This document shows positions 49,819 through 63,986 of a DNA stretch of 64,000 nucleotides, in pieces. The translations under genes were made by a program, and so were the position numbers. The notes beneath the pieces are model-generated. The model was given only the letters and a program-made list of their open reading frames with translations. It had not been told where the DNA came from and ran no database searches. Numbering within the stretch: position 1 is the first letter of the stretch; every line of letters begins with the position of its first letter. The DNA comes from Agromyces sp. CF514 (GTDB lineage: Bacteria; Actinomycetota; Actinomycetes; Actinomycetales; Microbacteriaceae): the NCBI RefSeq assembly GCF_900113185.1, contig NZ_FOZD01000001.1, positions 1 to 64,000 on the forward strand, in the 5' to 3' direction.

Positions 49819-50006
49819 TCATCGAGTCTCGCATCCGACGCGCCGGTGCGCCAGACCTTCGGCATCGACGCACCGGACGGCGCGCGGGTAGTGTTCGTGC
49901 AGATCGCCGACGATCAGACGCCTGCCCAGCCGGCGGCACCGGTCGACGGGCGCCGCCCTGCGGCATCCGTCACCGGCCGTTCACCCGACCGAATGAGACT
50001 GCTCGC

Positions 50007-51413
50007 ATGACCACTCCCCCCGAGCCCCCCGCAGACGCACCGCGCAACTTCCCGCCGACGCACCTCACTCCAGCCGACGGGGCGGCGGCCACCATCGGCG
50101 TGACGACCGAGCAGGTCGAGGCCGTGACGGATGCCGGTGCGCGGAAGGGACGCATCCTCGCGTGGGGCCTGTGGGACTGGGGATCGGCCGCGTTCAACGC
50201 GGTCGTGACGACCTTCGTGTTCACCGTGTACCTGACGAGCGAGTCGTTCGGGCCGAGCGGCACCGTCGAGGCGCAGCTCGGATGGGCGCTGGCGATCGCC
50301 GGGCTGCTGATCGCCCTGCTGGCGCCCATCACCGGCCAGCGATCCGACACGAGCGGGCGACGCAAGCTCTGGCTCGCCGTGAACACCTACATCGTCGTGG
50401 CCATCACCCTCGCGATGTTCTTCGTGCTGCCCGCGCCCGAGTACCTCATGCTGGGCCTCTTCCTCGTCGCGGCGGGCAACGTGTTCTTCGAGTTCGCGGG
50501 CGTCAACTACAACGCCATGCTGGTGCAGGTCTCGACGCCGCGCTCGATCGGCAAGGTCTCGGGCTTCGGCTGGGGCATGGGCTACGTCGGCGGCATCGTG
50601 CTGCTGCTCATCGTGTACTTCGGCTTCATCCAGCCCGAGGTCGGGCTGTTCGGAGTGACCGGCGACAACGGCCTCGACGTGCGCGTGACCATGCTCGTCT
50701 CAGCGATCTGGTTCGGCCTGTTCGCGCTGCCCGTGCTGCTCGCGGTGCCCGAGTACCGCAATCCCGCTGCCGTCGACCGCGGCAAGGTGGGGTTCTTCGC
50801 CTCGTATGCGCGCCTCGGCCGCGACGTGCAGCGGCTCTGGAAGGAGCAGCGCAACACGGTCTGGTTCCTGCTCGCCAGCGCGGTGTTCCGCGACGGCCTC
50901 GCGGGCGTCTTCACCTTCGGCGGCGTGCTCGCAGCCTCGGTCTTCGGGTTCTCGGCCGGCGAGGTCATCATCTTCGCGATCGCCGCCAACGTCGTCGCGG
51001 GCATCTCGACGATCGCCGTCGGCGCACTCGACGACCGGTTGGGCGCGAAACCGGTCATCATGACGGCGCTCATCGGTCTCGTGATCAGCGGCCTGCTCAT
51101 CTTCGTGCTGCACGACGGGGGCCAGATCGTGTTCTGGACGGCGGGCCTCGCGCTCTGCCTCTTCGTCGGCCCGGCGCAGTCGGCGAGCCGCACGTTCCTC
51201 GCGCGTCTCATCCCGGCCGGGCGCGAGGGCGAGGTGTTCGGCCTCTACGCGACGACCGGTCGCGCGGTGAGCTTCCTGGCTCCGACCGCATTCGCCCTCT
51301 TCGTCACGATCGGCGGGGCGCCCTACTTCGGCATCCTCGGCATCGTGCTCGTGATCGCGCTGGGGCTCGCGCTGCTCATCCCGGTGAAGGCGACGAAGGC
51401 GCCCGCCGCCTAG
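50007..51413 (+). CDS. MFS transporter, UMF1/Atg22-like family
   Basis: A 468-residue protein with twelve predicted helices. The family opening WGLWDWGSAAFNAVVTTFVFTVYLTSESFG is clear, as is the loop APITGQRSDTSGRRKLWLAV after helix 2. Fungal Atg22 exports amino acids from vacuoles; bacterial substrates are unknown. The frame is open from 49686 but the protein-like sequence starts at ATG 50007. Confidence 0.88.
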   Translation: MTTPPEPPADAPRNFPPTHLTPADGAAATIGVTTEQVEAVTDAGARKGRILAWGLWDWGSAAFNAVVTTFVFTVYLTSESFGPSGTVEAQLGWALAIAGLLIALLAPITGQRSDTSGRRKLWLAVNTYIVVAITLAMFFVLPAPEYLMLGLFLVAAGNVFFEFAGVNYNAMLVQVSTPRSIGKVSGFGWGMGYVGGIVLLLIVYFGFIQPEVGLFGVTGDNGLDVRVTMLVSAIWFGLFALPVLLAVPEYRNPAAVDRGKVGFFASYARLGRDVQRLWKEQRNTVWFLLASAVFRDGLAGVFTFGGVLAASVFGFSAGEVIIFAIAANVVAGISTIAVGALDDRLGAKPVIMTALIGLVISGLLIFVLHDGGQIVFWTAGLALCLFVGPAQSASRTFLARLIPAGREGEVFGLYATTGRAVSFLAPTAFALFVTIGGAPYFGILGIVLVIALGLALLIPVKATKAPAA

Positions 51414-51467: not shown

Positions 51468-51501
51468 CAAGTCATTGCTATAGTCAACACAATTGACTTG
51501 C
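51468..51501 (+). promoter_or_regulatory. operator/promoter A: TATAGTCAA with TTGACT inverted repeat
   Basis: AGTCAA-N5-TTGACT (51482-51498) is a perfect 6-bp inverted repeat whose left arm is fused to a -10 box TATAGT (51479-51484). An outer CAAGTCA/TGACTTG pair surrounds it. It lies 26 bases before the hydrolase start and is related to sites at 54372 and 56354. Confidence 0.7.
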
Positions 51502-51524
51502 GATGTTGCTAGAGAGGCGGCGCC

Positions 51525-52409
51525 GTGCGAACCACCGATCCGGGGTCACCGATCACCGTCGACGTCGGCGATGTGCGGATCGCCGCCGACGTCTCCGGAA
51601 CCGGCACCCCCGTGCTGCTCCTGCACGGGTACCCCGAGACGAGGGCGATGTGGCGCGAGGTCGCGGCCGAGCTCGCGACGCGCCACACCGTCGTCGCCGC
51701 CGACCTGCGCGGCTACGGCGACTCGACGAAGCCGGCCGGTGACCGCTACTCCAAGCGCGAGATGGCCGCCGACCAGGTCGGGCTCATGCGCGCGCTCGGG
51801 CACGACCGGTTCGCGGTCGTCGGCCACGACCGCGGCGGTCGGGTCGGCCACCGGCTCGCCCTCGACCACCCCGAGGCCGTGGCCGCGCTCGCGGTGCTCG
51901 ACATCGTGCCCACGCTGCACATGTTCGAGCACGTCGACCGCGACATGGCGACGAGCTACTTCCACTGGTTCTTCCTCGCACGCGACGACGGACTGCCGGA
52001 GCGACTCATCTCCGCAGCCCCGCGCGAGTGGCTCGAAAGCCGGTTCCGCGGCCGCGCCGTGCGCGAGGGCGCGATCTCGGCCGAGGCATTCGCCGAATAC
52101 CTCCGATGCTTCGACGAGGACACCGTCCGGGCGAGCTGCGCCGACTACCGCGCCGCTGCGACCGTCGACCTCGAGCACGATCGCGACGATCGCGACGCCG
52201 GCGTGCGGGTCGCCGCACCGCTCCTCGCGCTCTGGGGCGCGCACAGCTACGTCGGGCGCTCGTTCGACGTCGTCGAGGTCTGGCGCGACTTCGCCGACGC
52301 GGCATCCGGAGCCCCGATCGACGCCGACCACTACCTCGCGGAGGAGGCGCCCGCCGAGACGGCCACCGCACTCTCCGCCTTCCTCGACGACGGGACCGTG
52401 CAATGGTGA
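51525..52409 (+). CDS. haloacetate (fluoroacetate) dehalogenase-like alpha/beta hydrolase
   Basis: A 294-residue hydrolase. All marker residues of fluoroacetate dehalogenases are present: nucleophile Asp102 with Arg103 and Arg106 in GHDRGGRVGHR, acid Asp126 in VLDIVPT, halide-pocket His147-Trp148 in YFHWFF and Tyr208 in CADYRAAATVD, catalytic His269. These enzymes split the C-F or C-Cl bond of haloacetates; related epoxide hydrolases share part of the set. GTG start after AGAGAGG. It overlaps the M20 gene by 7 bases and is preceded by operator A. Confidence 0.85.
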   Translation: MRTTDPGSPITVDVGDVRIAADVSGTGTPVLLLHGYPETRAMWREVAAELATRHTVVAADLRGYGDSTKPAGDRYSKREMAADQVGLMRALGHDRFAVVGHDRGGRVGHRLALDHPEAVAALAVLDIVPTLHMFEHVDRDMATSYFHWFFLARDDGLPERLISAAPREWLESRFRGRAVREGAISAEAFAEYLRCFDEDTVRASCADYRAAATVDLEHDRDDRDAGVRVAAPLLALWGAHSYVGRSFDVVEVWRDFADAASGAPIDADHYLAEEAPAETATALSAFLDDGTVQW

Positions 52410-53521
52410 CCACGACGTTCGACCGCGACCGCGTGATCAGCCGGCTCGACGCGCTCGTGTCGACCGAGACGCCGACGGGCGATCGCGACGGCATGGCCGA
52501 GGCGCACCGCCTCGTGCGGTCGTGGCTCGACCCCCTGCTCGGCGACGGCGAACCCGTGGTGGTCGACGGCGTGACGCACCTGCTCTGGCGCGGCGGCGAC
52601 GCACCCCGCGTGCTGCTGCTCGGGCACCTCGACACCGTCTGGCCCCTCGGGACCATCCGCGAGCGGCCGTTCACGATCGACGGCGATCGCATCACCGGCC
52701 CCGGCACCTTCGACATGAAGGCGGGCGTCGTCATCATGGCCGAGGCGCTCCGCAGCGTCGTCGACACGGGCGACGTCGCCGTGCTCCTCACCAGTGACGA
52801 GGAGATCGGATCGCTGACCTCACGCGCACTGCTCGAACGCGAGGCCGCGCGCGCCGGAGCGGTGCTCGTGCTCGAGCCCAGCCTCGACGGCGCCGTGAAG
52901 ATCGCCAGGCGCGGCGGCAGCATCTACCGCCTCGAGGTGCACGGTCGGGCCGCCCATGCCGGGCTCGAGCCCGAACTCGGGCGCAGCGCGCTGGCCGAGC
53001 TCGCCCACCAGGTGCTCGCCCTGCCGAGGCTCGCCGACGACCGGTTGGGCACCACCGTCAGCCCCACGGTCGCGCACGCCGGAACCGTGACGAACGCGAT
53101 CCCCGACCGGGCCGAGATGCAGATCGACGTGCGCGCGTGGACCATGGGCGAACTCGAGCGCGTGCACGCGGCGTTCTCGTCGCTGCCGACGCACACCCCC
53201 GACGTGCGCGTGGACGTGAGCGGGGGCATCAACCGACCGCCGATGGAGGATGCCACGTCGCGCGACCTCCTCGCGCTCGCCCGCGCGGTCGCCGAACGCC
53301 TCGGGCACGGGCCCGTCGAGGCGGTCTCGGTCGGCGGCGCCTCGGACGGCAACTTCACGGCGGCCATCGGGGCGGCGACGCTCGACGGCCTCGGCCCGCG
53401 CGGCGGCGGCGCCCATGCGATCGACGAGTGGGTCTCACTGGCCTCGATCGAGGAGCGGATCGCCCTCATCACGGGCATCATCGACGGCATCGGCGGGTCG
53501 GCCGGCACCGGACCGGCCTGA
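52403..53521 (+). CDS. M20 family amidohydrolase (CPG2/ArgE-like)
   Basis: A 372-residue zinc peptidase. Ligands are visible in LLGHLDTVWP (His, Asp), PGTFDMKAG (bridging Asp), TSDEEIGS (Glu pair), VLEPS and GGGAHAIDEW (His). A dimerisation domain (GRAAHAGLEPELGRSALAEL) is present. It resembles glutamate carboxypeptidase and releases an amino acid from an amide bond. ATG 52403 overlaps the hydrolase stop, so the pair is translationally coupled. Confidence 0.9.
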   Translation: MVTTTFDRDRVISRLDALVSTETPTGDRDGMAEAHRLVRSWLDPLLGDGEPVVVDGVTHLLWRGGDAPRVLLLGHLDTVWPLGTIRERPFTIDGDRITGPGTFDMKAGVVIMAEALRSVVDTGDVAVLLTSDEEIGSLTSRALLEREAARAGAVLVLEPSLDGAVKIARRGGSIYRLEVHGRAAHAGLEPELGRSALAELAHQVLALPRLADDRLGTTVSPTVAHAGTVTNAIPDRAEMQIDVRAWTMGELERVHAAFSSLPTHTPDVRVDVSGGINRPPMEDATSRDLLALARAVAERLGHGPVEAVSVGGASDGNFTAAIGAATLDGLGPRGGGAHAIDEWVSLASIEERIALITGIIDGIGGSAGTGPA

Positions 53522-53537
53522 GCACGCTCGCCGCGCG

Positions 53538-54236
53538 TCAGGCCCCTTCGGCGGCGTTGCGCGGCGCGCGGCGCTCGATGCTCTCGAGCAGCAGTTCGAG
53601 CGCGGTCTCCCACGCGCGGGGGTCGCGGATGCCGGGCAGGTTCTCGCCCACCCACGCGATGTTCGGGTACTCGGCGAGGTCGAGCCGGCGGTAGTCCATC
53701 TGCCAGGTCAGCTCGTCGGCGTCGCGGACCTCGTCGGGCAGCGCCTCGAGCGCGGCCTGGATCGAGGTCGCCGATCGGATCAGCTGGCCGAGCGCCCTGG
53801 CGTAGAGCGCGGATTCCTCGGGCCCGTACCCGCCGCGACGCAGCGCGCCGATCGAGAACTCCATCGACTTGAAGTCGGTCGGGCGGCGAAGGGCCATCTG
53901 CAGCGCGAACTCGGGATAGCGCATGTAGTGGTCGTGGATCAGGTGGGCCTGCGCACGCAGGTCCGCCATCCAGTCGTCGGTCGCGATCATCGCGCCCGCG
54001 TACGATCTGGCGCGCAACGTGTCGATGAGCTCGAGGAGCAGTTCGTCCTTGTCGCGGAAGTGGCGGTAGATCGACGTGGGGTGGGCGTCGAGCTCCTCGC
54101 CGATGGCCTGGAACGTGAGGCGGTCGAGGCCGTCCCGTTGCACCACGGCCTCGGCAGCCGCCACGATGATCTCCCTGCTCAGCGAGTCCCTCGCACGCCG
54201 CGGCCGGCTCTGCTTCACGGTCTTCGTGGTCGCCAT
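53538..54236 (-). CDS. TetR family regulator of the import cluster
   Basis: A 232-residue repressor-type protein. The HTH (EIIVAAAEAVVQRDGLDRLTFQAIGEELDAHPTSIYRHFRDKDELL) occupies about 22-67; a TetR_C-like ligand domain follows. It lies between the hydrolase/M20 pair and the divergent S9 peptidase. Sites of the AGTCAA type at its own promoter and at three neighbouring promoters make it the likely regulator of the cluster. Confidence 0.87.
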   Translation of the reverse strand: MATTKTVKQSRPRRARDSLSREIIVAAAEAVVQRDGLDRLTFQAIGEELDAHPTSIYRHFRDKDELLLELIDTLRARSYAGAMIATDDWMADLRAQAHLIHDHYMRYPEFALQMALRRPTDFKSMEFSIGALRRGGYGPEESALYARALGQLIRSATSIQAALEALPDEVRDADELTWQMDYRRLDLAEYPNIAWVGENLPGIRDPRAWETALELLLESIERRAPRNAAEGA

Positions 54237-54319
54237 CGCGCCTCTCCCCTCGAACCGGTCGCCATCGACGCGCGATGCGGCCGGATTGCACCCACCGTAC
54301 CCTAAGGGAGCAGCCTCGT

Positions 54320-54336
54320 AGTCAATGACGATGATC
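54320..54336 (-). promoter_or_regulatory. operator-like half-site at the tetR promoter
   Basis: AGTCAA (54320-54325) followed by TGACG and ATGATC is a degenerate copy of the AGTCAA-N5-TTGACT site. Read on the minus strand the arm is TTGACT, a good -35 for tetR; the -10 is unclear. Confidence 0.4.
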
Positions 54337-54357
54337 AGCTCCCGGGCCCCCATCCGA

Positions 54358-54394
54358 TCACTAGTCAGTGTTATAGTCAACACGCCTGACCAGT
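54358..54394 (+). promoter_or_regulatory. operator/promoter B before the S9 peptidase
   Basis: TATAGT (54372-54377) is a -10 box fused to AGTCAA-CACGC-CTGACC (54375-54391), an imperfect copy of operator A. Flanking ACTAGTCAGT (54360-54369) and TGACCAGT (54387-54394) resemble the palindrome TTACTGGTCAGTAA at 63987, so a second regulator may bind here too. Confidence 0.6.
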
Positions 54395-54410
54395 GAAGCG
54401 AGGAGCAGTC

Positions 54411-56285
54411 GTGACGAACGTACGCCACCCGGACAGCCGGCCCGACCACCTGACGGCGCGCTTCGCGACGCCCGTGCTCCTCACCGCCCGCCCGGTGGTC
54501 GGCACGAGCGACCTGGCTCTCCTCATCGAGGACCAGCCCGAGGGCTCGCGCGCCAGGCTCTGGCGCGCAGGCGAGGCGCCCGGCGAACTGCTGCCCTTCC
54601 CGGTCGGCGTCGGCGCGGTGCTCACGAACGACGGCCGCTGGGTCGTCGACCTCGACGACGACGGGGGGTCGGAGGTCGGCGCCCTCGTCGCGATCGCCGT
54701 CGACGGGTCCGAGACGGTGGCGCTCACGCCCGGGCGCGAGCCGTACGTGCTGCGCGGCATCGAGCCGAGCCACGACGGGCGTTCCATCGTCGCCACGGTC
54801 GTCGACGAGCAGGGGTTCCACGTGCTGCGGATCCCCGCGGCGCCATGGGGCGAACCGCAGGTCGTCTACTCGTCGCCCGTCGAGGCCTGGTACGGGCAGG
54901 TCTCCGCCGACTCCGCGCTCGTGTCCGTCGACACGACCGACCACAATCCCGGCATCCGCCGAGCCCGCGTCACCGTGGTCGACTCGCGCGACGGCTCGAC
55001 CGTCGGCGTGCTCGACGACCTGCCCGCGGGGCCGGTGCGCGGCGTTCGCTTCGCCGGCATCGCCGGCGACCCGCGTCTGCTCGCCAACACCGAGCGCACC
55101 GGCTTCGCGCGGCCCGTGATCTGGGACCCGACGACGAACGAACGCGTCGACTTCGAACTGCCCGAGCTGCGCGGCGAGGTGATCCCGCTCGACTGGCACG
55201 CCGAGTCCGGCCGCATCCTCGCGCTCCACGTCGAGGACGGGCTGCACCGCCTGCTCGAGATCGACGAGTCGACCGGCGCGGCGCGCGTCGTCATGGACGG
55301 CGCGAGCTTCGCCGACCCCGACGTCGCCGACCTGCATCCGTTCCAGTGGGCGTCGTACTTCGCGCCCGACGGCACGATCCGCGCGGTGCGCTCGCGGTGG
55401 CACGAGCCGCGGCACGTCATCGGCATCGATCGCGACGGGGCATCCGAGGTGCTGATCGCACCGGCACCGGTGCCGGAGGGCGTGCCGTTCACCTCCACCA
55501 TGATCGAGAGCGCAGACGGCACCCGCGTGCAGCTGTGGCTCGGCAGGCCGACCGATCGCGAACCGATCGGCACCGTGCTCGAGGTGCACGGCGGCCCCAA
55601 CCTCGTCATGGTCGACGCGTACAACCCGTCGGCGCAGGCCTGGATCGAGGCGGGGTTCGCCTACGCCACCCTGAACTACCGGGGCTCGGTCACGTTCGGC
55701 CGGGACTTCCGCGAGGGCTTCTGGGGCGTCGGCGGCGATCGCGAGATCGAGGACGTCGACGCCGCGATCGCGTTCCTGCGCAGTCAGGGCCTCGGCGACC
55801 CGGCGACCACCTTCATCACCGGCGCCTCCTACGGCGGGCACCTCACCCTGCTCAGCGTCGGCCGGCTGCCCGACCGCTTCCGCGGCGGCCTCGCGCACGT
55901 CGCCGTGGCCGACTGGTCCGCCGCGATCGCGGCGATGAACCCCGCGGTGCGCAGCGTGTGGAGCAGCTGGGTGCCGCCCGAGATGGTCGAGCACTTCTCG
56001 GCCGTCAGCTACCTCGACGACGTCACGGCCTCGGTGTGGATCAACCAGGGGTCGGTCGACACGCGGACCCCGATCATCGGCGTGCAGAGCTACGTCGATC
56101 GCCTCGGCGCACGCGGCGGCGACGTCGTGCTCGACATCTTCACGGGCGGCCACGAGCCGACCGGGCTCGCCATGCTCGAGCACGACCAGCGCAGGATGAC
56201 CGACCTCGCCCTGCGCGCGATCGCGGGGCGGCGATGGTCGGAGGATGCCGCAGCGGGCCCGTCCGAGGCATCCGTCGCCCACTGA
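54411..56285 (+). CDS. S9 family serine peptidase (prolyl oligopeptidase/acylaminoacyl type)
   Basis: A 624-residue peptidase: an N-terminal seven-bladed propeller (about 20-370) gates a C-terminal alpha/beta-hydrolase. The triad is Ser473 in GASYGGH, Asp550 in GSVDTRTP and His581 in GGHEPTG. No signal peptide, so it cleaves imported short or N-blocked peptides in the cytoplasm. GTG 54411 has AGGAG 5 bases upstream; an in-frame GTG at 54393 is less suitable. Controlled by promoter B and followed by the peptide importer. Confidence 0.9.
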   Translation: MTNVRHPDSRPDHLTARFATPVLLTARPVVGTSDLALLIEDQPEGSRARLWRAGEAPGELLPFPVGVGAVLTNDGRWVVDLDDDGGSEVGALVAIAVDGSETVALTPGREPYVLRGIEPSHDGRSIVATVVDEQGFHVLRIPAAPWGEPQVVYSSPVEAWYGQVSADSALVSVDTTDHNPGIRRARVTVVDSRDGSTVGVLDDLPAGPVRGVRFAGIAGDPRLLANTERTGFARPVIWDPTTNERVDFELPELRGEVIPLDWHAESGRILALHVEDGLHRLLEIDESTGAARVVMDGASFADPDVADLHPFQWASYFAPDGTIRAVRSRWHEPRHVIGIDRDGASEVLIAPAPVPEGVPFTSTMIESADGTRVQLWLGRPTDREPIGTVLEVHGGPNLVMVDAYNPSAQAWIEAGFAYATLNYRGSVTFGRDFREGFWGVGGDREIEDVDAAIAFLRSQGLGDPATTFITGASYGGHLTLLSVGRLPDRFRGGLAHVAVADWSAAIAAMNPAVRSVWSSWVPPEMVEHFSAVSYLDDVTASVWINQGSVDTRTPIIGVQSYVDRLGARGGDVVLDIFTGGHEPTGLAMLEHDQRRMTDLALRAIAGRRWSEDAAAGPSEASVAH

Positions 56286-56306
56286 CCATCGCGTCGGAGA
56301 ACCGAT

Positions 56307-56323
56307 AATCAATCGCATTGACT
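56307..56323. promoter_or_regulatory. operator C1: AATCAA-N5-TTGACT
   Basis: An inverted repeat with one mismatch between the S9 peptidase and the binding-protein gene, 22 bases after the peptidase stop. Confidence 0.6.
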
Positions 56324-56330
56324 ATAACGC

Positions 56331-56362
56331 TTGCTAAACCCTCGGAGCGGGCCTATAGTCAA
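56331..56362 (+). promoter_or_regulatory. promoter C2 with TATAGTCAA
   Basis: TTGCTA (56331-56336), a 17-base spacer and TATAGT (56354-56359) make a good sigma-A-type promoter for the ABC importer. AGTCAA (56357-56362) overlaps the -10 exactly as in promoters A and B. Confidence 0.7.
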
Positions 56363-56413: not shown

Positions 56414-58114
56414 ATGTCGAAATCACAGCCCGCCACCACTCCCCGTCGCGCGAAGACGATCGCCCTCGCGTCGCTGCTCTCGCTCACGCTCGTGGCTTCG
56501 CTCGCCGCCTGCACCGGAGGCAGCGCCGAGTCCGCGCCCGCGCCCGACGTCGCCGTGCAGGACGGAGGCGAGATCGTGATCGGCGCAGAGCAGGAGCCCG
56601 ACTGCGTCGACTGGATCGCCACGTGCGCCGGCTCGATCTGGGGCACCTACATCATGCAGATCCCCACGATCCCGGCCGTGTTCGACACCCGCAAGGTCGA
56701 CGGCGAGTGGGCCCCCGTGGCCTCCGACCTCGTCACCGCCGAGCCCGTCGCCGAGATGGTCGGCGACACCCAGGTCATCACGTACTCGATCAACCCCGAC
56801 GCGGTCTGGTCCGACGGCGAGCCGATCACGTCTGCCGACTTCGCCTACACGGCACTGCAGATCCGCGACGGCGACGACATCTTCGACAAGACGGGCTACG
56901 ACAAGATCCTCGACGTCGACGCGACCGACCCCTCCACCGCGGTCGTCACCCTCGGCTCCACGTACGCGGGGTGGCGCACGCTGTTCAGCGTCTACGGCGT
57001 GCTGCCGTCGCACCTGCTCGAGGGCAAGGACCGCGCTGCCGAGATGGCCGACGGCTACGACTTCAGCGGCGGCCCGTGGAAGATCGAGTCATGGGATCGC
57101 GGCACCTCCGCGACGCTCGTGCCGAACGAGAACTACTGGGGCGAGAAGCCGCACCTCGACAAGGTGACCTTCATGTTCCTGCCCGACACGACGGCCGCCT
57201 TCCAAGCCCTCAAGAGCGGCCAGGTCGACGCGCTCTACCCGTCGCCCCAGCTCGACGCGATCAACCAGATCGACGCGGGCCTGCCGGGCATCAACTCCCA
57301 GATCGACGCGAAGAGCGGCAACCTCGAGGCCGTGTGGCTGAACAACGAGGCGTTCCCGTTCGACTCGGTGGCCGTGCGCCAGGCCCTCGCCTACTCGATC
57401 GACCGCAAGGCGATCGTGTCGCGCCTGTTCGGCAGCCTCGGCGTCGAGGAGCCGCAGCAGAGCTTCAACAGCCCCATCGTCGGGGCCTTCGCGGCCGACG
57501 ACTTCTCGACCTACACGACCGACCTCGACCAGGTCGAGTCGCTGATGGAGGGCGACGGCTGGAAGAAGGACGGCGACGGCGTCTGGGCGAAGGACGGCAA
57601 GACCGCGACCTTCACGATGCTGACGCTCGCGGGCAACAAGCGCCGCGACCTCACCACCCAGGTGCTGCAGTCGCAGCTCGCCGACGCCGGCTTCGAGATG
57701 AAGATCAGCGCCGTCACCCCGGCGGACCTGTTCGGCACCCTGGCTCCCGAGGGCGACTTCCAGGCCGGGCTCTGGGCGCTCGTCGACACGTTCGCCGACC
57801 CCACGCTGAGCTCGACGTTCTCGTCGGTGAACATCCCGAGCGAGGCCAACGGCTACTCCGGCATCAACTTCTACCGCACCTCGATCCCCGAGCTCGACCC
57901 GCTGCTCGCGCAGGTCGACAGCGAGCTCGACACCGACGCCCGCATCGCCGCCTCGAAGGAGGCCGACGCGATCATCGCCGAGAACGTGCCCTCGCTGCCG
58001 CTGGACACCGTGCCGAACGTGCTCCTCTGGAGCGAGAAGGTCGGCGGCCCGCTCGAGATCAACCCCGTGCAGGGACCGTTCTGGAACCTCGCGGCGTGGG
58101 GCCTCGCAGGCTGA
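56414..58114 (+). CDS. ABC transporter substrate-binding lipoprotein (SBP_bac_5)
   Basis: A 566-residue lipoprotein. The signal peptide ends in LVASLAAC (lipobox), and the mature part is a family 5 oligopeptide-type binding protein (GGEIVIGAEQEPDCVDWI; AVWSDGEPITSADFAYT; NENYWGEKPHLDKVTF; VRQALAYSIDRKAIV). Ligands of this family are peptides, opines, nickel or other small amides. ATG 56414 has GGAG upstream. First gene of the importer operon. Confidence 0.92.
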   Translation: MSKSQPATTPRRAKTIALASLLSLTLVASLAACTGGSAESAPAPDVAVQDGGEIVIGAEQEPDCVDWIATCAGSIWGTYIMQIPTIPAVFDTRKVDGEWAPVASDLVTAEPVAEMVGDTQVITYSINPDAVWSDGEPITSADFAYTALQIRDGDDIFDKTGYDKILDVDATDPSTAVVTLGSTYAGWRTLFSVYGVLPSHLLEGKDRAAEMADGYDFSGGPWKIESWDRGTSATLVPNENYWGEKPHLDKVTFMFLPDTTAAFQALKSGQVDALYPSPQLDAINQIDAGLPGINSQIDAKSGNLEAVWLNNEAFPFDSVAVRQALAYSIDRKAIVSRLFGSLGVEEPQQSFNSPIVGAFAADDFSTYTTDLDQVESLMEGDGWKKDGDGVWAKDGKTATFTMLTLAGNKRRDLTTQVLQSQLADAGFEMKISAVTPADLFGTLAPEGDFQAGLWALVDTFADPTLSSTFSSVNIPSEANGYSGINFYRTSIPELDPLLAQVDSELDTDARIAASKEADAIIAENVPSLPLDTVPNVLLWSEKVGGPLEINPVQGPFWNLAAWGLAG

Positions 58115-58204: not shown

Positions 58205-59170
58205 GTGATCACCTTCATCACACGGCGAGTGCTCGTCTCGCTTCCGGTGATCCTCGTGGCATCGTTCATCCTCTTCTGGGCCGTGCGGTCGACGTTCGAC
58301 CCGCTCGCGAAGCTCCGGCTCGCGCAGGACCCGACCGCACTCGCGCGCGAGGTCGAGCGGCTCGGCCTCGACCGCTCGATCTTCGAGCAGTACCTCCTCT
58401 GGCTGAAGTCCTTCGTCACCGGCGACTGGGGCGTGAGCTCGCGCACCGGCACCCCGGTGCTGCCGCTCATCGGCGAGGCCCTCTGGCCGACGCTGCAACT
58501 CGCGTTCTGGGGCCTCCTGATCGCGATCGTCGTCGCCGGGTCGATCAGCGTCTACTCCGCGGTGCGGCAGTACTCCCCCGGCGACCATGTGCTCACGGCG
58601 GCGTCGTACATCGGCATCGCGATGCCGGCCTTCTGGTTCGGGCTCATCCTCATCCAGACGTTCGCCGTCTGGCCCAAGCAGACGTTCGGACTCGAGGAAC
58701 CCCCGCTCTACTTCATCGGCCTGCACTCGCCGGGCGACTCGGGCGTGGTCGACTACATCCGCCACCTCGTGCTGCCGGTCGCCGCGCTCATGATCGCGCT
58801 GGTCGCGTCGTGGAGCCGATTCGGGCGAGCCGCCGTGCTCGACGCACTGTCGAGCGACTACGTGCGCACCGCGAGGGCGAAAGGCGTGCCCCGGCGCCAG
58901 GTCATCTGGCGGCATGCGGTGCGCAACTCGCTCGCCCCCTTCGTCACGGTCGTCGCGCTCGACGCGGCCATCCTCATCGGCGGCCTCGTCGTCACCGAGC
59001 AGATCTTCGCGATCCCCGGCATGGGGCGCCTGTTCCTGCAGTCGCTCGTCGCGGGCGACGTCTTCGTGCTGTTGCCGTGGATGATCGTCGTCGCGATCGC
59101 CGTCGTGCTCTGCAACCTCGCGGCCGACATCGGCTACGCGTTGCTCGACCCGAGAGTGAGGCTCCGATGA
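58205..59170 (+). CDS. ABC transporter permease (DppB type)
   Basis: A 321-residue inner-membrane permease with six helices. The EAA loop is YVRTARAKGVPRRQVIWRHAVRNSLAP (about 219-245), which contacts the ATPases. AGGAGAG precedes GTG 58205. Its stop overlaps the next permease start (ATGA). Confidence 0.92.
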   Translation: MITFITRRVLVSLPVILVASFILFWAVRSTFDPLAKLRLAQDPTALAREVERLGLDRSIFEQYLLWLKSFVTGDWGVSSRTGTPVLPLIGEALWPTLQLAFWGLLIAIVVAGSISVYSAVRQYSPGDHVLTAASYIGIAMPAFWFGLILIQTFAVWPKQTFGLEEPPLYFIGLHSPGDSGVVDYIRHLVLPVAALMIALVASWSRFGRAAVLDALSSDYVRTARAKGVPRRQVIWRHAVRNSLAPFVTVVALDAAILIGGLVVTEQIFAIPGMGRLFLQSLVAGDVFVLLPWMIVVAIAVVLCNLAADIGYALLDPRVRLR

Positions 59171-60069
59171 GCGGTGCAGGACTGGCCGGCCCCGAGGAGA
59201 TCCTCGCGGAGCAGCCGGTGCAGAAGGGCTCGACGAGGCAGCTCGTCGATCGCTTCGCGCACCACCGGCTCGCCCTCGCGAGCCTGATCGTGCTGGGCGT
59301 GCTGCTCGTCGTCTGCTTCGGCGCCGCGTGGATCGCCCCGTTCCCGCAGGGGCAGCAGGACCTGCTGCTCGGCCCGACCTCGCCGTCGGCGGAGCACTGG
59401 CTCGGCACCGACGAGCTGGGGCGCGACTACCTCAGCGAGATCCTCTACGCCGGGCAGATCTCGCTCGCCATCGGCCTGGCCGTCGCGTTCTTCTCGACCG
59501 TGGTCGGCACGGCCCTCGGCGCGATCGCCGGCTTCGCGGGCGGATGGGTCGGCGAGCTGATCATGCGCATCACCGACCTCTTCCTCATCGTGCCGGCGAT
59601 CGCCCTGCTCGCGGTGATCCTGCAGGGCCTCGGCCCCTCGCCCGTGACGATCGTGTTCGCGCTCACGGCGCTCGGCTGGACCTACATCGCCCGCGTCGTG
59701 CGCGCCCAGGTGCTCTCGCTCCGCGAGAAGGACTTCATCGAGGCGGCACGGGGCATCGGCGCGTCCAATGCGCGCATCATCCTGTCGCACCTGCTCCCGA
59801 ACCTCGCGGGCGTCATCGCCGTGGGCATGAGCCTCGCGGTCGCCTCGGCGATCATCGCGGAGTCCACGCTGAGCTTCCTGGGCTTCGGCGTGCAGTCCCC
59901 GCAGACGAGCTGGGGCTCGATGCTCAGCCAGGCGGCCGGCTACGTCGGCACCTCGCAGGTCTACCTCCTCTACTTCCCCGGCCTGTTCATCCTCATCACG
60001 GTGCTCTGCGTCAACTTCATCGGCGACGGCCTCCGCGACGCCCTCGACCCCCAGGGGAAGAACCTGTGA
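59167..60069 (+). CDS. ABC transporter permease (DppC type)
   Basis: A 300-residue permease with the N-terminal OppC-type segment (DRFAHHRLALASLIVLGVLLVVCFGAAWIAPF), the HWLGTDELGRDYLSEILYAGQISLAIGL region typical of DppC, and the EAA loop FIEAARGIGASNARIILSHLLPN. Translationally coupled on both sides (ATGA upstream, GTGA downstream). Confidence 0.93.
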   Translation: MSGAGLAGPEEILAEQPVQKGSTRQLVDRFAHHRLALASLIVLGVLLVVCFGAAWIAPFPQGQQDLLLGPTSPSAEHWLGTDELGRDYLSEILYAGQISLAIGLAVAFFSTVVGTALGAIAGFAGGWVGELIMRITDLFLIVPAIALLAVILQGLGPSPVTIVFALTALGWTYIARVVRAQVLSLREKDFIEAARGIGASNARIILSHLLPNLAGVIAVGMSLAVASAIIAESTLSFLGFGVQSPQTSWGSMLSQAAGYVGTSQVYLLYFPGLFILITVLCVNFIGDGLRDALDPQGKNL

Positions 60070-61064
60070 CCAGCGACATCCTGCTCGAGGTCGAGGACCT
60101 CTCGATCAGCTTCCCGTCGGATGCCGGCACCGCGCGCGCCGTGGAGGGCGTCTCGTTCGTGCTGCACGAGGGCGAGACCACCGGCATCGTGGGCGAGTCC
60201 GGATCGGGCAAGTCGATGACGGCGATGGCGATCATGGGCATCCTGCCGAAGAACGCGATCGTGACGGGGTCGATCCGCCTGCGCGGGCGCGAGCTGGTCG
60301 GGCTCACCGACGAGCAGCTCCGGGAGATCCGCGGCAAGGACGTCGCGATCGTGTTCCAGGACGCCCTCACCGCGCTCAACCCGGTGATGACCGTCGGCGA
60401 CCAGCTCATCGAGGCCGTGCGCGTGCACCGCCCCGACACGACCGCCGCGCAGCGCCGCGCTCGCGCGATCGAGCTGCTCGACCTCGTCGGCATCCCGGCT
60501 CCCGAGAAGCGCATCGCCCGCTACCCGCACGAGTTCTCGGGCGGCATGCGCCAGCGCGTCATGATCGCGATGAGCATCGCGAACGAGCCCGACCTGCTCA
60601 TCGCCGACGAGCCGACGACCGCGCTCGACGTCACCGTGCAGGCGCAGGTGCTCGACGTGCTGCGCGAGGTGCAGCGGCGCACGGGCACGACGATTCTGCT
60701 CATCACCCATGACCTCGGCGTCGTCGCGGGCGTCGCGGATCGCGTCATCGTCATGTACGCGGGTGGCGTCGTCGAGTCCGCCGACGTCGAGCCGCTCTTC
60801 TACGAGACCGCGCACCCGTACACGGCCGGACTGCTCGCCTCCATGCCGCGCATGGATCGGCGGTCGCGCGACGAACGGCTCTACCAGATCCCCGGCCAGC
60901 CGCCGGCTTCGACGGCCTGGCCGAAGGGATGCCGGTTCGCACCGCGCTGCGCCCACGCCGTCGCCGGCCGCTGCGACGTGGCCGTGCCCGAGCCGGTCGC
61001 GGTCGGCACGGGGCACACGGCCAGTTGCGTCCGCGTCGGCGAATGGCAGGAGGAGGCACGATGA
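60066..61064 (+). CDS. ABC transporter ATP-binding protein (DppD type)
   Basis: A 332-residue ATPase: Walker [10 protein letters not shown]-loop in [15 protein letters not shown], signature FSGGMRQRV, Walker [14 protein letters not shown], and the C-terminal oligopeptide-transporter domain with cysteines in [17 protein letters not shown], likely an iron-sulfur or zinc motif of this family. GTG start overlaps the permease stop. Confidence 0.93.
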
Positions 61065-62044
61065 GCACGGGCTTGAGCGTCGAGAACCTCGTCAAGGAGT
61101 ACCGCGTCGGTGGCGGCTTCCTCGGCGGCGCCCGCGAGGTCGTGCAGGCCGTCTCCGACGTGAGCTTCTCGATCGGGGGCGGCGAGACGTTCGGGCTCGT
61201 CGGCGAGTCCGGCTGCGGCAAGTCCTCGCTCGGCCGCAGCGTCGCCCGGCTGCAGTCCTCGGACTCCGGGCTGATCCGGCTGGGCGACGACGACATCTCG
61301 AAGGTGGGCGGGTCACGGCTGCGCGCGCTGCGCCGGCGGGTGCAGTTCGTCTTCCAGGACCCGTACGCCTCGCTCAACCCGCGCAAGTCCGTGCGAGCGA
61401 CCCTGTCCGAGCCGCTCGCGATCCACGGCCTGCACCGCCGTGACGAGCAGCGGCGCGTCGCCGAACTGCTCGACCAGGTCGGCCTCAACCCCGAGCACGC
61501 CGACCGGTTCCCGCACGAGTTCTCGGGCGGCCAGCGGCAGCGCATCGGCATCGCCCGCGCGCTCGCGGTCGAGCCCGAGGTGATCGTGCTCGACGAGCCA
61601 GTCAGCGCGCTCGACGTCAGCGTGCAGGCCGGCGTGCTGAACCTCCTCGACGACCTGCAGCGCGACCTCGGCCTCACGTACCTCTTCATCGCGCACGACC
61701 TCTCCGTCGTGAGGCACCTGAGCGACCGGGTGGGCGTCATGTACCTCGGCCGCCTCATCGAGGAGGCACCGGTCGACCTGCTCTACGAGCACCCGAAGCA
61801 TCCGTACACCCAGGCCCTGCTCTCGGCGATCCCCGTGCCCGACCCCCGCGTCGAGCGCGCACGGCAGCGCATCGTGCTCACGGGCGACGTGCCGAGCCCC
61901 GTCGATCCGCCGAGCGGATGCCGCTTCCGCACGCGCTGCTGGAAGGCCACCGACCGCTGCGCGACCGAGGTGCCCGAGCTCACCGATCTGGGCGGCGGCC
62001 AACGCGTCGCCTGCCACTACCCCGAGGAGCGCGCCGTCGTCTGA
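61061..62044 (+). CDS. ABC transporter ATP-binding protein (DppF type)
   Basis: A 327-residue second ATPase: Walker [26 protein letters not shown], signature [15 protein letters not shown], Walker [15 protein letters not shown], and the C-terminal [15 protein letters not shown] motif. Starts with ATGA overlap and completes the importer. Confidence 0.93.
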
Positions 62045-62091: not shown

Positions 62092-63177
62092 ATGACCACC
62101 ACCCACCGCATCGCGGTCATCGCCGGCGACGGCATCGGCACCGAGGTGATGCCAGAGGGCATCCGGGTGCTCGAGGCCGCGGCGGCGCGCTTCGACCTCC
62201 GCCTCGAGTTCACGCACTTCGACTTCGCGAGCGCCGACTACTGGTTGCGGCACGGCAAGATGCTGCCAGACGACTGGTTCGACACGCTCTCGGGGTTCGA
62301 CGCGATCTACTTCGGCGCGGTCGGCTGGCCCGAGGTCGTGCCCGACCACGTGAGCCTGTGGGGGAGCCTCCTCCAGTTCCGGCGCGCGTTCGACCAGTAC
62401 GTCAACCTGCGGCCGTGCCGGCTGATGCCGGGAGTCGTGAGCCCGCTCTCGGGCCGCGAGCCCGGCGACATCGACTTCTACGTCGTGCGCGAGAACACCG
62501 AGGGCGAGTACTCGTCGATCGGCGGACGCATGTTCGAGGGCACCGAGCGCGAGTTCGTCGTGCAGGAGACGGTCATGACGCGCACCGGCGTCGACCGCGT
62601 GCTGAAGTACGCGTTCGAGCTCGCCGAACGCAGACCGGCCAAGCACCTCACGTCCGCGACGAAGAGCAACGGCATCTCGATCTCGATGCCCTACTGGGAC
62701 GAGCGGGTCGCCGCCGTCGGCGCCGAGCACCCCGACGTGCGGCGCGACCAGTTCCACATCGACATCCTGACGGCGAACTTCGTGCTGCATCCCGACTGGT
62801 TCGACGTGGTCGTGGCGAGCAACCTCTTCGGCGACATCCTCTCCGACCTGGGTCCGGCGTGCACGGGTACCATCGGCATCGCGCCGAGCGCGAACATCAA
62901 CCCCGAAGGGGCGTTCCCGAGCCTGTTCGAGCCGGTGCACGGCTCGGCTCCCGACATCGCCGGCCGCGGCATCGCGAACCCGATCGGCCAGATCTGGTGC
63001 GGCGCGATGATGCTCGAGCACCTGGGCCACGCCGATGCCGGCGCGGCCGTGCTCGCGTCGATCGAGGACGTGCTCGCCCGTGGCGCGGCATCCGCCCCCT
63101 TCACCCCCGACCTCGGCGGCACCGCGACGACCGTCGAGCTGGGCGCGGCGATCGCCGAGGCGGTTCGGGCGGGCTGA
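62092..63177 (+). CDS. tartrate/D-malate-type dehydrogenase (isocitrate/isopropylmalate family)
   Basis: A 361-residue NAD-dependent beta-decarboxylating dehydrogenase. Motifs: IAVIAGDGIGTEVMPEG, RPCRLMPG (substrate arginines), YVVRENTEGEYSSIGGRMFEG, the catalytic lysine near ATKSNGI, DILTANFV and NLFGDILSDLGPACTGTIGIAPSANINP, and EPVHGSAPDIAG for NAD. The YSSIGG form is closer to tartrate/D-malate dehydrogenase than to LeuB. It could process a hydroxy-diacid released from the imported compound (inference). 47 bases after the importer. Confidence 0.87.
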   Translation: MTTTHRIAVIAGDGIGTEVMPEGIRVLEAAAARFDLRLEFTHFDFASADYWLRHGKMLPDDWFDTLSGFDAIYFGAVGWPEVVPDHVSLWGSLLQFRRAFDQYVNLRPCRLMPGVVSPLSGREPGDIDFYVVRENTEGEYSSIGGRMFEGTEREFVVQETVMTRTGVDRVLKYAFELAERRPAKHLTSATKSNGISISMPYWDERVAAVGAEHPDVRRDQFHIDILTANFVLHPDWFDVVVASNLFGDILSDLGPACTGTIGIAPSANINPEGAFPSLFEPVHGSAPDIAGRGIANPIGQIWCGAMMLEHLGHADAGAAVLASIEDVLARGAASAPFTPDLGGTATTVELGAAIAEAVRAG

Positions 63178-63180
63178 CGC

Positions 63181-63834
63181 CTACTCGACCGGTGCGGCGG
63201 CCTCGGAGCGCAGCCGCTCGACGATCTCGTCGACCGTGCGGCCGACGACCCGGGGCATGTCGATCGCGTCAGGGTCGAGCAGCCACTGCACCTGCAGGCC
63301 GTCCATGATCGCGATGAGCGACGACGCCGAGTCGCGCAGCTCCTGCGCGTCGGTGTTGCCGGACACCTCGCCGAGCACGCCGGCGATCTTCGTGCGCAGC
63401 CCCTCGGTGCGGCCCTGGAAGTAGTCGTGCGCCGGATGCCCGTCGGTCACCGATTCGCCGGCGAGCACCGAGTAGGCCTGCACGACGCCTCGTCGGTGCG
63501 TGTTCTCCTCGACGGTGTCGACGAGGTGCTGCAGGAACGCCGGGCCCTCGACCTGCGCACGTTCGGGGATGCCGGCGACCTCCTCGCCGTCGCGGTACTT
63601 GAGCATCGCGACGAGCAGGCCCTCCTTCGACCCGAAGTGGTGCAGCACGCCCGCATGCGTCATGCCGGCCTGCTCGGCGACTTCGACGAGGGCGCCCTTG
63701 TTGTAGCCGCGTGCACCGAACACGTTCATGGCGGCCTTCAGCACCGCCTCGCGACGCTCGGTCGTGCGCGCCTGGGGGCGCTGCACGCGCTCGGCCGCGG
63801 GCTTCGGGGCCCCGGCTCGCGTTGTCTCCACCAC
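63181..63834 (-). CDS. TetR family regulator
   Basis: A 217-residue regulator. The HTH (REAVLKAAMNVFGARGYNKGALVEVAEQAGMTHAGVLHHFGSKEGLL) spans about 28-74. GTG 63834 follows AAGGAA. Its stop is 3 bases from that of the dehydrogenase (convergent). The palindrome at 63987-64000 is its probable operator and probably also controls a divergent gene beyond the window. Confidence 0.87.
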   Translation of the reverse strand: MVETTRAGAPKPAAERVQRPQARTTERREAVLKAAMNVFGARGYNKGALVEVAEQAGMTHAGVLHHFGSKEGLLVAMLKYRDGEEVAGIPERAQVEGPAFLQHLVDTVEENTHRRGVVQAYSVLAGESVTDGHPAHDYFQGRTEGLRTKIAGVLGEVSGNTDAQELRDSASSLIAIMDGLQVQWLLDPDAIDMPRVVGRTVDEIVERLRSEAAAPVE

Positions 63835-63986
63835 GGGTGTTTCCTTCCTCGTGCAGCGCCGGCTCGCGGCATCCGCTCCTGTGCAGGATGCCGCCTGAGG
63901 GGCCGCATGTCGAGTGCAGCACTCGATTCTCGGGTCTTCGGGGTGCCACCGTCCGCCGTTACCGAACCGTGACACTATTCACTTAC

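Follow-up and report, generated by a model that had tools for sequence, protein, structure and literature searches.

The stretch of DNA analyzed here comprises 64,000 nucleotides of the Agromyces sp. CF514 genome (contig NZ_FOZD01000001.1, positions 1 to 64,000; "the window" in short). Within it, genes for an alpha/beta hydrolase (abh), an M20 peptidase, a TetR-family regulator (tetR) and an S9 peptidase are followed by an operon for an ATP-binding cassette (ABC) importer with a family 5 solute-binding protein (SBP), in which a tartrate/D-malate-type dehydrogenase gene comes last. Short repeated sequences at the promoters of this cluster had been taken as a shared operator, through which the TetR protein encoded in the middle would control a local regulon. 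Two lines of evidence strongly support this proposal: the conservation extends across genera, and the sites are also found in front of tetR homologues that stand without the cluster. The features are listed in Table 1.

Table 1. Genes and predicted operators and promoters of the cluster (positions in the window)
Feature	Position	Strand	Characteristics
Predicted operator O1, abh-M20 promoter	51469..51499	+	Half-sites AAGTCAT 51469-51475, TAGTCAA 51481-51487, TTGACTT 51493-51499
Extended -10 of O1	51476-51484	+	TGCTATAGT
abh, alpha/beta hydrolase, fluoroacetate-dehalogenase type	51525..52409	+	Asp nucleophile motif GHDRGGR; Abhydrolase_1 5.2e-31
M20 peptidase	52403..53521	+	Nearest PDB relative carboxypeptidase G2
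TetR-family regulator, proposed repressor of the four sites	53538..54236	-	TetR_N 3.5e-11; relatives and conserved sites
Predicted operator O2, degenerate	54319..54337		Three mismatches; between O3 and tetR; without third half-site
Predicted operator O3, S9 promoter	54362..54392	+	Half-sites TAGTCAG 54362-54368, TAGTCAA 54374-54380, CTGACCA 54386-54392
Extended -10 of O3	54369-54377	+	TGTTATAGT
S9 peptidase	54411..56285	+	Peptidase_S9 1.9e-28; nearest in PDB to acylamino-acid-releasing enzymes; start codon picked by eye
Predicted operator O4, importer promoter	56306..56336	-	Palindrome 56306-56324; third position 56330-56336 on the -35
Predicted importer promoter	56331..56362	+	-35 TTGCTA 56331-56336, 17-bp spacer, -10 TATAGT 56354-56359, half-site to 56362
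SBP of the ABC importer (family 5)	56414..58114	+	SBP_bac_5 1.9e-62
ABC importer permease (B)	58205..59170	+	BPD_transp_1 5.9e-38
ABC importer permease (C)	59167..60069	+	BPD_transp_1 3.1e-33, OppC_N 2.3e-09
ABC importer ATPase (D)	60066..61064	+	ABC_tran 6e-30, oligo_HPY 2.5e-18
ABC importer ATPase (F)	61061..62044	+	ABC_tran 1.4e-31, oligo_HPY 1.6e-18
Tartrate/D-malate-type dehydrogenase, final gene of the importer operon	62095..63177	+	TIGR02089 555 bits (cut-off 470.4); Iso_dh 3.5e-83

Repeated sites at the promoters of the cluster

Four copies of the nine-mer TATAGTCAA lie within 4.9 kb, at 51479, 54372 and 56354 on the forward strand, as the original prediction had it, and at 56318 on the reverse strand, where a copy had been overlooked; dinucleotide shuffles gave a mean of 0.01. 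The full palindrome AGTCAA-N5-TTGACT predicted at 51482 and its near copy at 56307 (one mismatch) were both recovered. A degenerate site proposed at 54320 exists as well (54319, three mismatches), but it is not the operator of the S9 promoter, which has its own palindrome with two mismatches at 54374-54392 within O3.

O1 and O3 share the same arrangement, namely three half-sites (forward, forward and inverted) in 12-bp steps, of which the middle one is fused to an extended -10 element. When the window was scanned for this three-part element, O1 and O3 were the only matches, and none were obtained in six simple shuffles of the window. O4 is unlike these two in that its palindrome precedes the -35 instead of covering the -10; the third position shows three mismatches to the half-site. 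Half-site and extended -10 are fused at abh and S9, in line with the original prediction, and competition of RNA polymerase and repressor for the same bases fits these two promoters, whereas at the importer promoter it is the third position that coincides with the -35. Directly upstream of O1 lies a gene for an MFS/Atg22-like transporter (50004-51413, forward strand).

The possibility that the motif is common at unrelated promoters was checked in the whole genome (4,298,469 bases on four contigs) and did not hold. Four of the five genomic copies of TATAGTCAA are in the cluster, and so are all three places that match the 19-mer TAGTCAA-N5-TTGACTA with up to two mismatches (51481, 54374 and 56306). 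The shorter AGTCAA-N5-TTGACT occurs, with up to one mismatch, in three places, two of them in the cluster and the third apparently inside a coding stretch (judged by eye); the reversed control gave two. The fifth nine-mer (G000:C2:673906-673914, corresponding to 1501-1509 of locus L005) is located in a divergent interval between genes that were named by reading as monooxygenase-like and PadR-like, and inspection by eye found no TTGACT partner at N5. At exactly three mismatches the 19-mer matches 18 further genomic places, 54319 included, while the reversed control gave 28 at up to three mismatches. This level is therefore background, the site at 54319/54320 is not significant by itself, and three-mismatch matches were rejected as support for O2. 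Among 60 genomes of the genus (this one counted), 35 hold the bare nine-mer, nearly always as a single copy, so that TATAGTCAA alone is unspecific and its clustering is what is specific. The exceptions are G017 with seven copies (control also seven) and G057 with three, the latter on three contigs and without a close tetR.

Conservation of the sites with the TetR gene

A scan of named genomes confirmed 167 relatives of the TetR protein, and the best 80 of these provided the loci for comparison. Nineteen close loci (L039-L057) encode TetR proteins 77-90% identical to that of the window and come from 17 Microbacterium, one Microbacteriaceae metagenome-assembled genome (MAG) and one Agromyces. 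Another 27 distant loci (L058-L084; TetR 46-59% identical) come nearly all from named actinobacteria, with one from a bacterial bin, and 34 loci remain (L085-L118). The cluster genes surround tetR in all 46 close and distant loci, with varying order and number; conservation of gene order is counted in favor of the TetR-operator model. In the genus, only this genome and G033 (78%) were found to carry a close tetR; the best match beyond these reached 31%. The regulon is thus patchy in the genus and has probably often been moved or lost.

As a control, 119 permuted half-sites were applied to the same loci, which addresses composition and not descent. With up to one mismatch, the palindrome gave 41 matches in 19/19 close loci (control mean 0.0, maximum 1), 24 matches in 18/27 distant loci (mean 0.1, maximum 1) and eight matches in 8/34 remaining loci (mean 0.1, maximum 1). 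A site with up to two mismatches lies at most 260 bp upstream of tetR in 16/19, 20/27 and 10/34 loci, respectively (control mean 0.1, maxima 1, 4 and 3). Sites upstream of tetR were also seen in seven homologue loci (L086, L087 and L089-L093; 513 bp away in L089), around which, in the flanks fetched and some of them short, no other genes of the window cluster were found. Since the site is present upstream of homologues without cluster genes, it tracks the type of TetR and not the cluster alone.

The individual promoters are conserved to different degrees. O1 is represented by a palindrome with up to two mismatches upstream of abh in all 19 close loci, of which 17 retain the exact TATAGTCAA there and 16 retain it upstream of S9. 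None of the 19 keeps the exact nine-mer at the importer -10, where TA[TG]AGTC is found in every one. A loose -35/-10 pattern was present upstream of the SBP gene in 19/19 close and 19/27 distant loci, a count that covers the readable loci and has no control. In the interval of O2, a second site with up to two mismatches was seen in three of the 19 close loci (L039, L041 and L055). Among the remaining loci, L115 stems from a MAG record named Bifidobacterium breve that has importer genes and a tetR cut at the locus end, possibly a misbinned contig.

The position of the third half-site was analyzed with the orientation fixed beforehand, by counting TAGTCAA-like half-sites (up to two mismatches) at offsets 7 to 30. 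Three sets of sites were used: 28 tetR-proximal sites from the 36 loci L058-L093, the 19 close abh sites, and 16 of the 19 close S9 sites (palindrome with up to two mismatches). The middle half-site is preceded by a further one at a distance of exactly 12 bp in 21/28 tetR-proximal, 16/19 abh and 16/16 S9 sites, while the other offsets reached at most 2/28, 1/19 and 1/16. An operator made symmetric by a fourth half-site 12 bp downstream was rejected, as such a half-site occurred in only 1/28, 3/19 and 0/16. The upstream half-site could be a promoter element instead of a repressor contact; however, no standard sigma contact is expected at this position, and the half-site recurs in six of the seven tetR homologues without the cluster (L092 is without it). 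The half-site, TnGnCnA, resembles its own reverse complement, and it is therefore possible that a symmetric dimer finds two overlapping registers 12 bp apart.

Candidate regulator and mode of action

The protein encoded in the middle of the cluster scores 43.2 bits for TetR_N (PF00440; gathering score 24), and, as expected of this family, palindromic sites lie near its own gene and the neighboring genes. It does not belong to the tetracycline repressor equivalog NF010319 (27.7 bits, cut-off 265). What the sequence itself shows is that the sites exist, cluster, are conserved and are linked to tetR; binding, repression and ligand release are what we infer. We consider it highly probable that this TetR protein binds the TAGTCAA/TTGACTA half-sites at the four predicted operators and represses three transcription units until it is released by a ligand. 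Bound to all four, it would shut off abh-M20, the S9 peptidase gene, and the unit formed by the SBP, permease, ATPase and tartrate-type dehydrogenase genes, and it would probably also repress its own gene through O2 or the shared tetR-S9 interval. The original prediction had named the hydrolase/M20 pair, the S9 peptidase and the importer; these stand, but the extent was understated, as the dehydrogenase and probably tetR itself are to be added. The repressor would cover the extended -10 (TGnTATAGT) of abh and S9. Its place at the importer would be just in front of the TTGCTA -35 and aligned with it, so that occlusion of the -35 is the predicted effect. Release probably depends on a small-molecule ligand, presumably either what is imported or something formed from it on breakdown; with this nutrient-derived ligand present, TetR would leave the DNA and the cluster genes would be switched on together.

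Several observations weigh against this proposal. Conservation-based prediction can fail: in the Snowprint benchmark, the known operator is reported as significantly matched in 67 of 147 cases (PMC10858194). The conservation counts are not independent either, as the loci share ancestry and permuted controls are blind to descent. The abh and S9 promoters are without a good -35, a promoter scan listed only the importer promoter of the three, and O2 is a weak site. Of the 34 remaining loci, 24 have no site in the 260-bp tetR interval, most of them with a TetR only 33-37% identical. The same holds for seven distant loci (L066, L072, L074-L076, L078 and L079), in which no canonical site was found within 260 bp of tetR. 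These are all Streptomyces and keep tetR and the importer, and a different inverted repeat, TAGGCAATGC-N4-GCATAGTTA in type, is common to the seven; six have T[AG]GGCAA[TG]GC-N4-GCATAGTTA and L066 has TAGTCAATTC-N4-ACATAGTTA. The substitutions L40F, G46A and I56L in the TetR helix-turn-helix were noted by eye in nine loci, which are these seven and two from Embleya that carry an altered half-site; the TetR of L055 has I56L alone, and its sites are canonical. That operator and regulator changed together in the seven Streptomyces loci is suggestive only, and the loci may simply be related. Finally, the position of the O4 palindrome upstream of the -35 leaves room for activation.

This last point leads to an alternative in which TetR is a repressor at abh and S9 and an activator at the importer promoter. 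The palindrome at 56306-56324 ahead of the -35 at 56331, an arrangement that is also readable in the close loci, agrees with it, while the third half-site position on the -35 suits occlusion, and repression is the usual mode of the TetR family. We hold activation to be unlikely.

The sites might instead be bound by another regulator, such as a second TetR encoded beyond the dehydrogenase or a global regulator, with the middle tetR a mere neighbor. A second TetR_N gene is indeed present at 63181-63975 on the reverse strand, and a further TATAGTCAA stands between the PadR-like and monooxygenase-like genes on contig C2. Such an assignment is nevertheless quite improbable, considering that the sites are not scattered over the genome and that homologues of the middle TetR have them upstream too, including those beside which no cluster gene was found. 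The second TetR gene (3182-3976 in L129) is convergent to the end of the importer operon, and its BetI-type C-terminal match of 26.9 is just under the cut-off of 27. That TATAGTCAA is merely a good -10 box recurring by chance or local duplication is scarcely credible: TATAGT would serve as a -10, and many genus genomes hold roughly one bare nine-mer, but only 0.01 copies are expected in the window, the conservation spans genera, the conserved block does not stop at the -10 but includes N5-TTGACT as well as the upstream half-site, and the genome counts and permuted-motif controls rejected chance or simple -10 recurrence.

Repression by the middle TetR protein would place the system beside known TetR-family repressors that act locally through operators overlapping a promoter. 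TetR regulators with palindromic operators are textbook knowledge. They are also stated as such in PMC9723621, and predicting operators from what is conserved next to a regulator gene is established practice (PMC10858194). With the repressors of the tetracycline repressor type, the protein shares the TetR_N domain, PDB sequence matches (classes A, D and G) and palindromic sites at the promoters of neighboring genes; the third, directly repeated half-site at 12 bp and the importer and enzyme targets are different. Direct repeats have been described for other members of the family: MtrR is reported to repress through a 27-bp pseudo-direct repeat (PMC6755732), and ComA is said to bind repeats of both kinds, inverted and direct (PMC9723621). 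The site predicted here joins one repeat of each kind at the same 12-bp step. TetR regulators, palindromic operators and direct-repeat binding are known, and the three-half-site operator is unusual. From it one could learn how a TetR dimer, being symmetric, copes with sites that are odd in number.

In a search of open-licence papers, neither this regulator and operator nor the regulon was found described. No paper among them was found that joins TetR, an AGTCAA operator and Actinobacteria, or TetR, tartrate dehydrogenase, ABC transporter and M20; nor was there one on epoxysuccinate with tartrate dehydrogenase or on a TetR repressor of a Microbacterium peptide ABC transporter. Of the listed papers containing the letters TAGTCAA and TTGACTA together with repressor, none was relevant by title. 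What the sites and the TetR protein offer is a concrete candidate for both operator and regulator of an import-and-catabolism regulon that is conserved in actinobacteria.

Possible function of the regulon

One operon combines SBP_bac_5 with a pair of permeases and a pair of ATPases, as expected of family 5 peptide/nickel importers. The importer resembles the Dpp/Opp/Nik types in its SBP_bac_5, BPD_transp_1 and oligo_HPY domains but differs from them in that the SBP and permease B remain below all NCBIfam cut-offs listed. The final dehydrogenase passes the TIGR02089 equivalog cut-off, and so do all four relatives that were scanned.

The PDB matches of abh are fluoroacetate dehalogenases (9c9f, 7.9e-77; Alr0039 as the best, 1e-84). 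Residues D102, R103, R106, H147, W148 and H269 are kept in 36/36 aligned rows (the window and 35 relatives). They supply what is looked for in a fluoroacetate dehalogenase, namely the Asp nucleophile, the two Arg of GHDRGGR, the HW pair and the late His. The likeness to the known enzymes (PDB 9c9f, 1y37 and 3r3u) extends to all these motifs. The difference lies in the setting: the predicted hydrolase belongs to a peptide-import regulon with a tartrate-type dehydrogenase.

The pairing of a hydrolase for alpha-substituted acids with a tartrate/malate enzyme suggests an epoxy- or halo-succinate intermediate. By way of speculation, the regulon may catabolize peptides that carry epoxy- or halo-succinate. 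One such compound is E-64, which is described as consisting of trans-epoxysuccinate, leucine and agmatine, with a pathway widely conserved in fungi (PMC12568646). Of the cis-epoxysuccinate hydrolases, one type is reported to be near L-2-haloacid dehalogenase and the other to have a TIM-barrel fold (PMC6429283). A more specific and rather doubtful version is that the TetR repressor, reading an asymmetric operator of three half-sites, governs a conserved pathway for the import and dismantling of electrophile-armed pseudopeptides in actinobacteria, e.g., epoxysuccinyl (E-64-like) peptides. The S9 and M20 peptidases would set free the acid, from which the dehalogenase-type hydrolase would form tartrate or malate by opening it, and the product would be oxidized by the tartrate-type dehydrogenase. 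If true, this would be a soil route for dismantling fungal cysteine-protease inhibitors.

The two enzymes were followed in a hand-built table of 23 of the 27 distant loci (L075, L079, L081 and L084 were left out). Both abh and the dehydrogenase are near in 15 loci, the dehydrogenase alone in one (L071) and neither in seven (L062, L066, L068, L072, L073, L074 and L078; absence of abh refers to the flank). This co-occurrence gives a Fisher p of 3e-5, or 9e-5 without L072, for rows that are not independent; L072 has a dehydrogenase match ~3.7 kb beyond the flank, if on the same contig. For the close set, 18 of the 19 loci were searched (L049 was left out) and contig identity was inferred from coordinates. 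With L052 unplaced, the best dehydrogenase match lies at most ~3.5 kb past the importer-side end of the locus in 17 of these 18.

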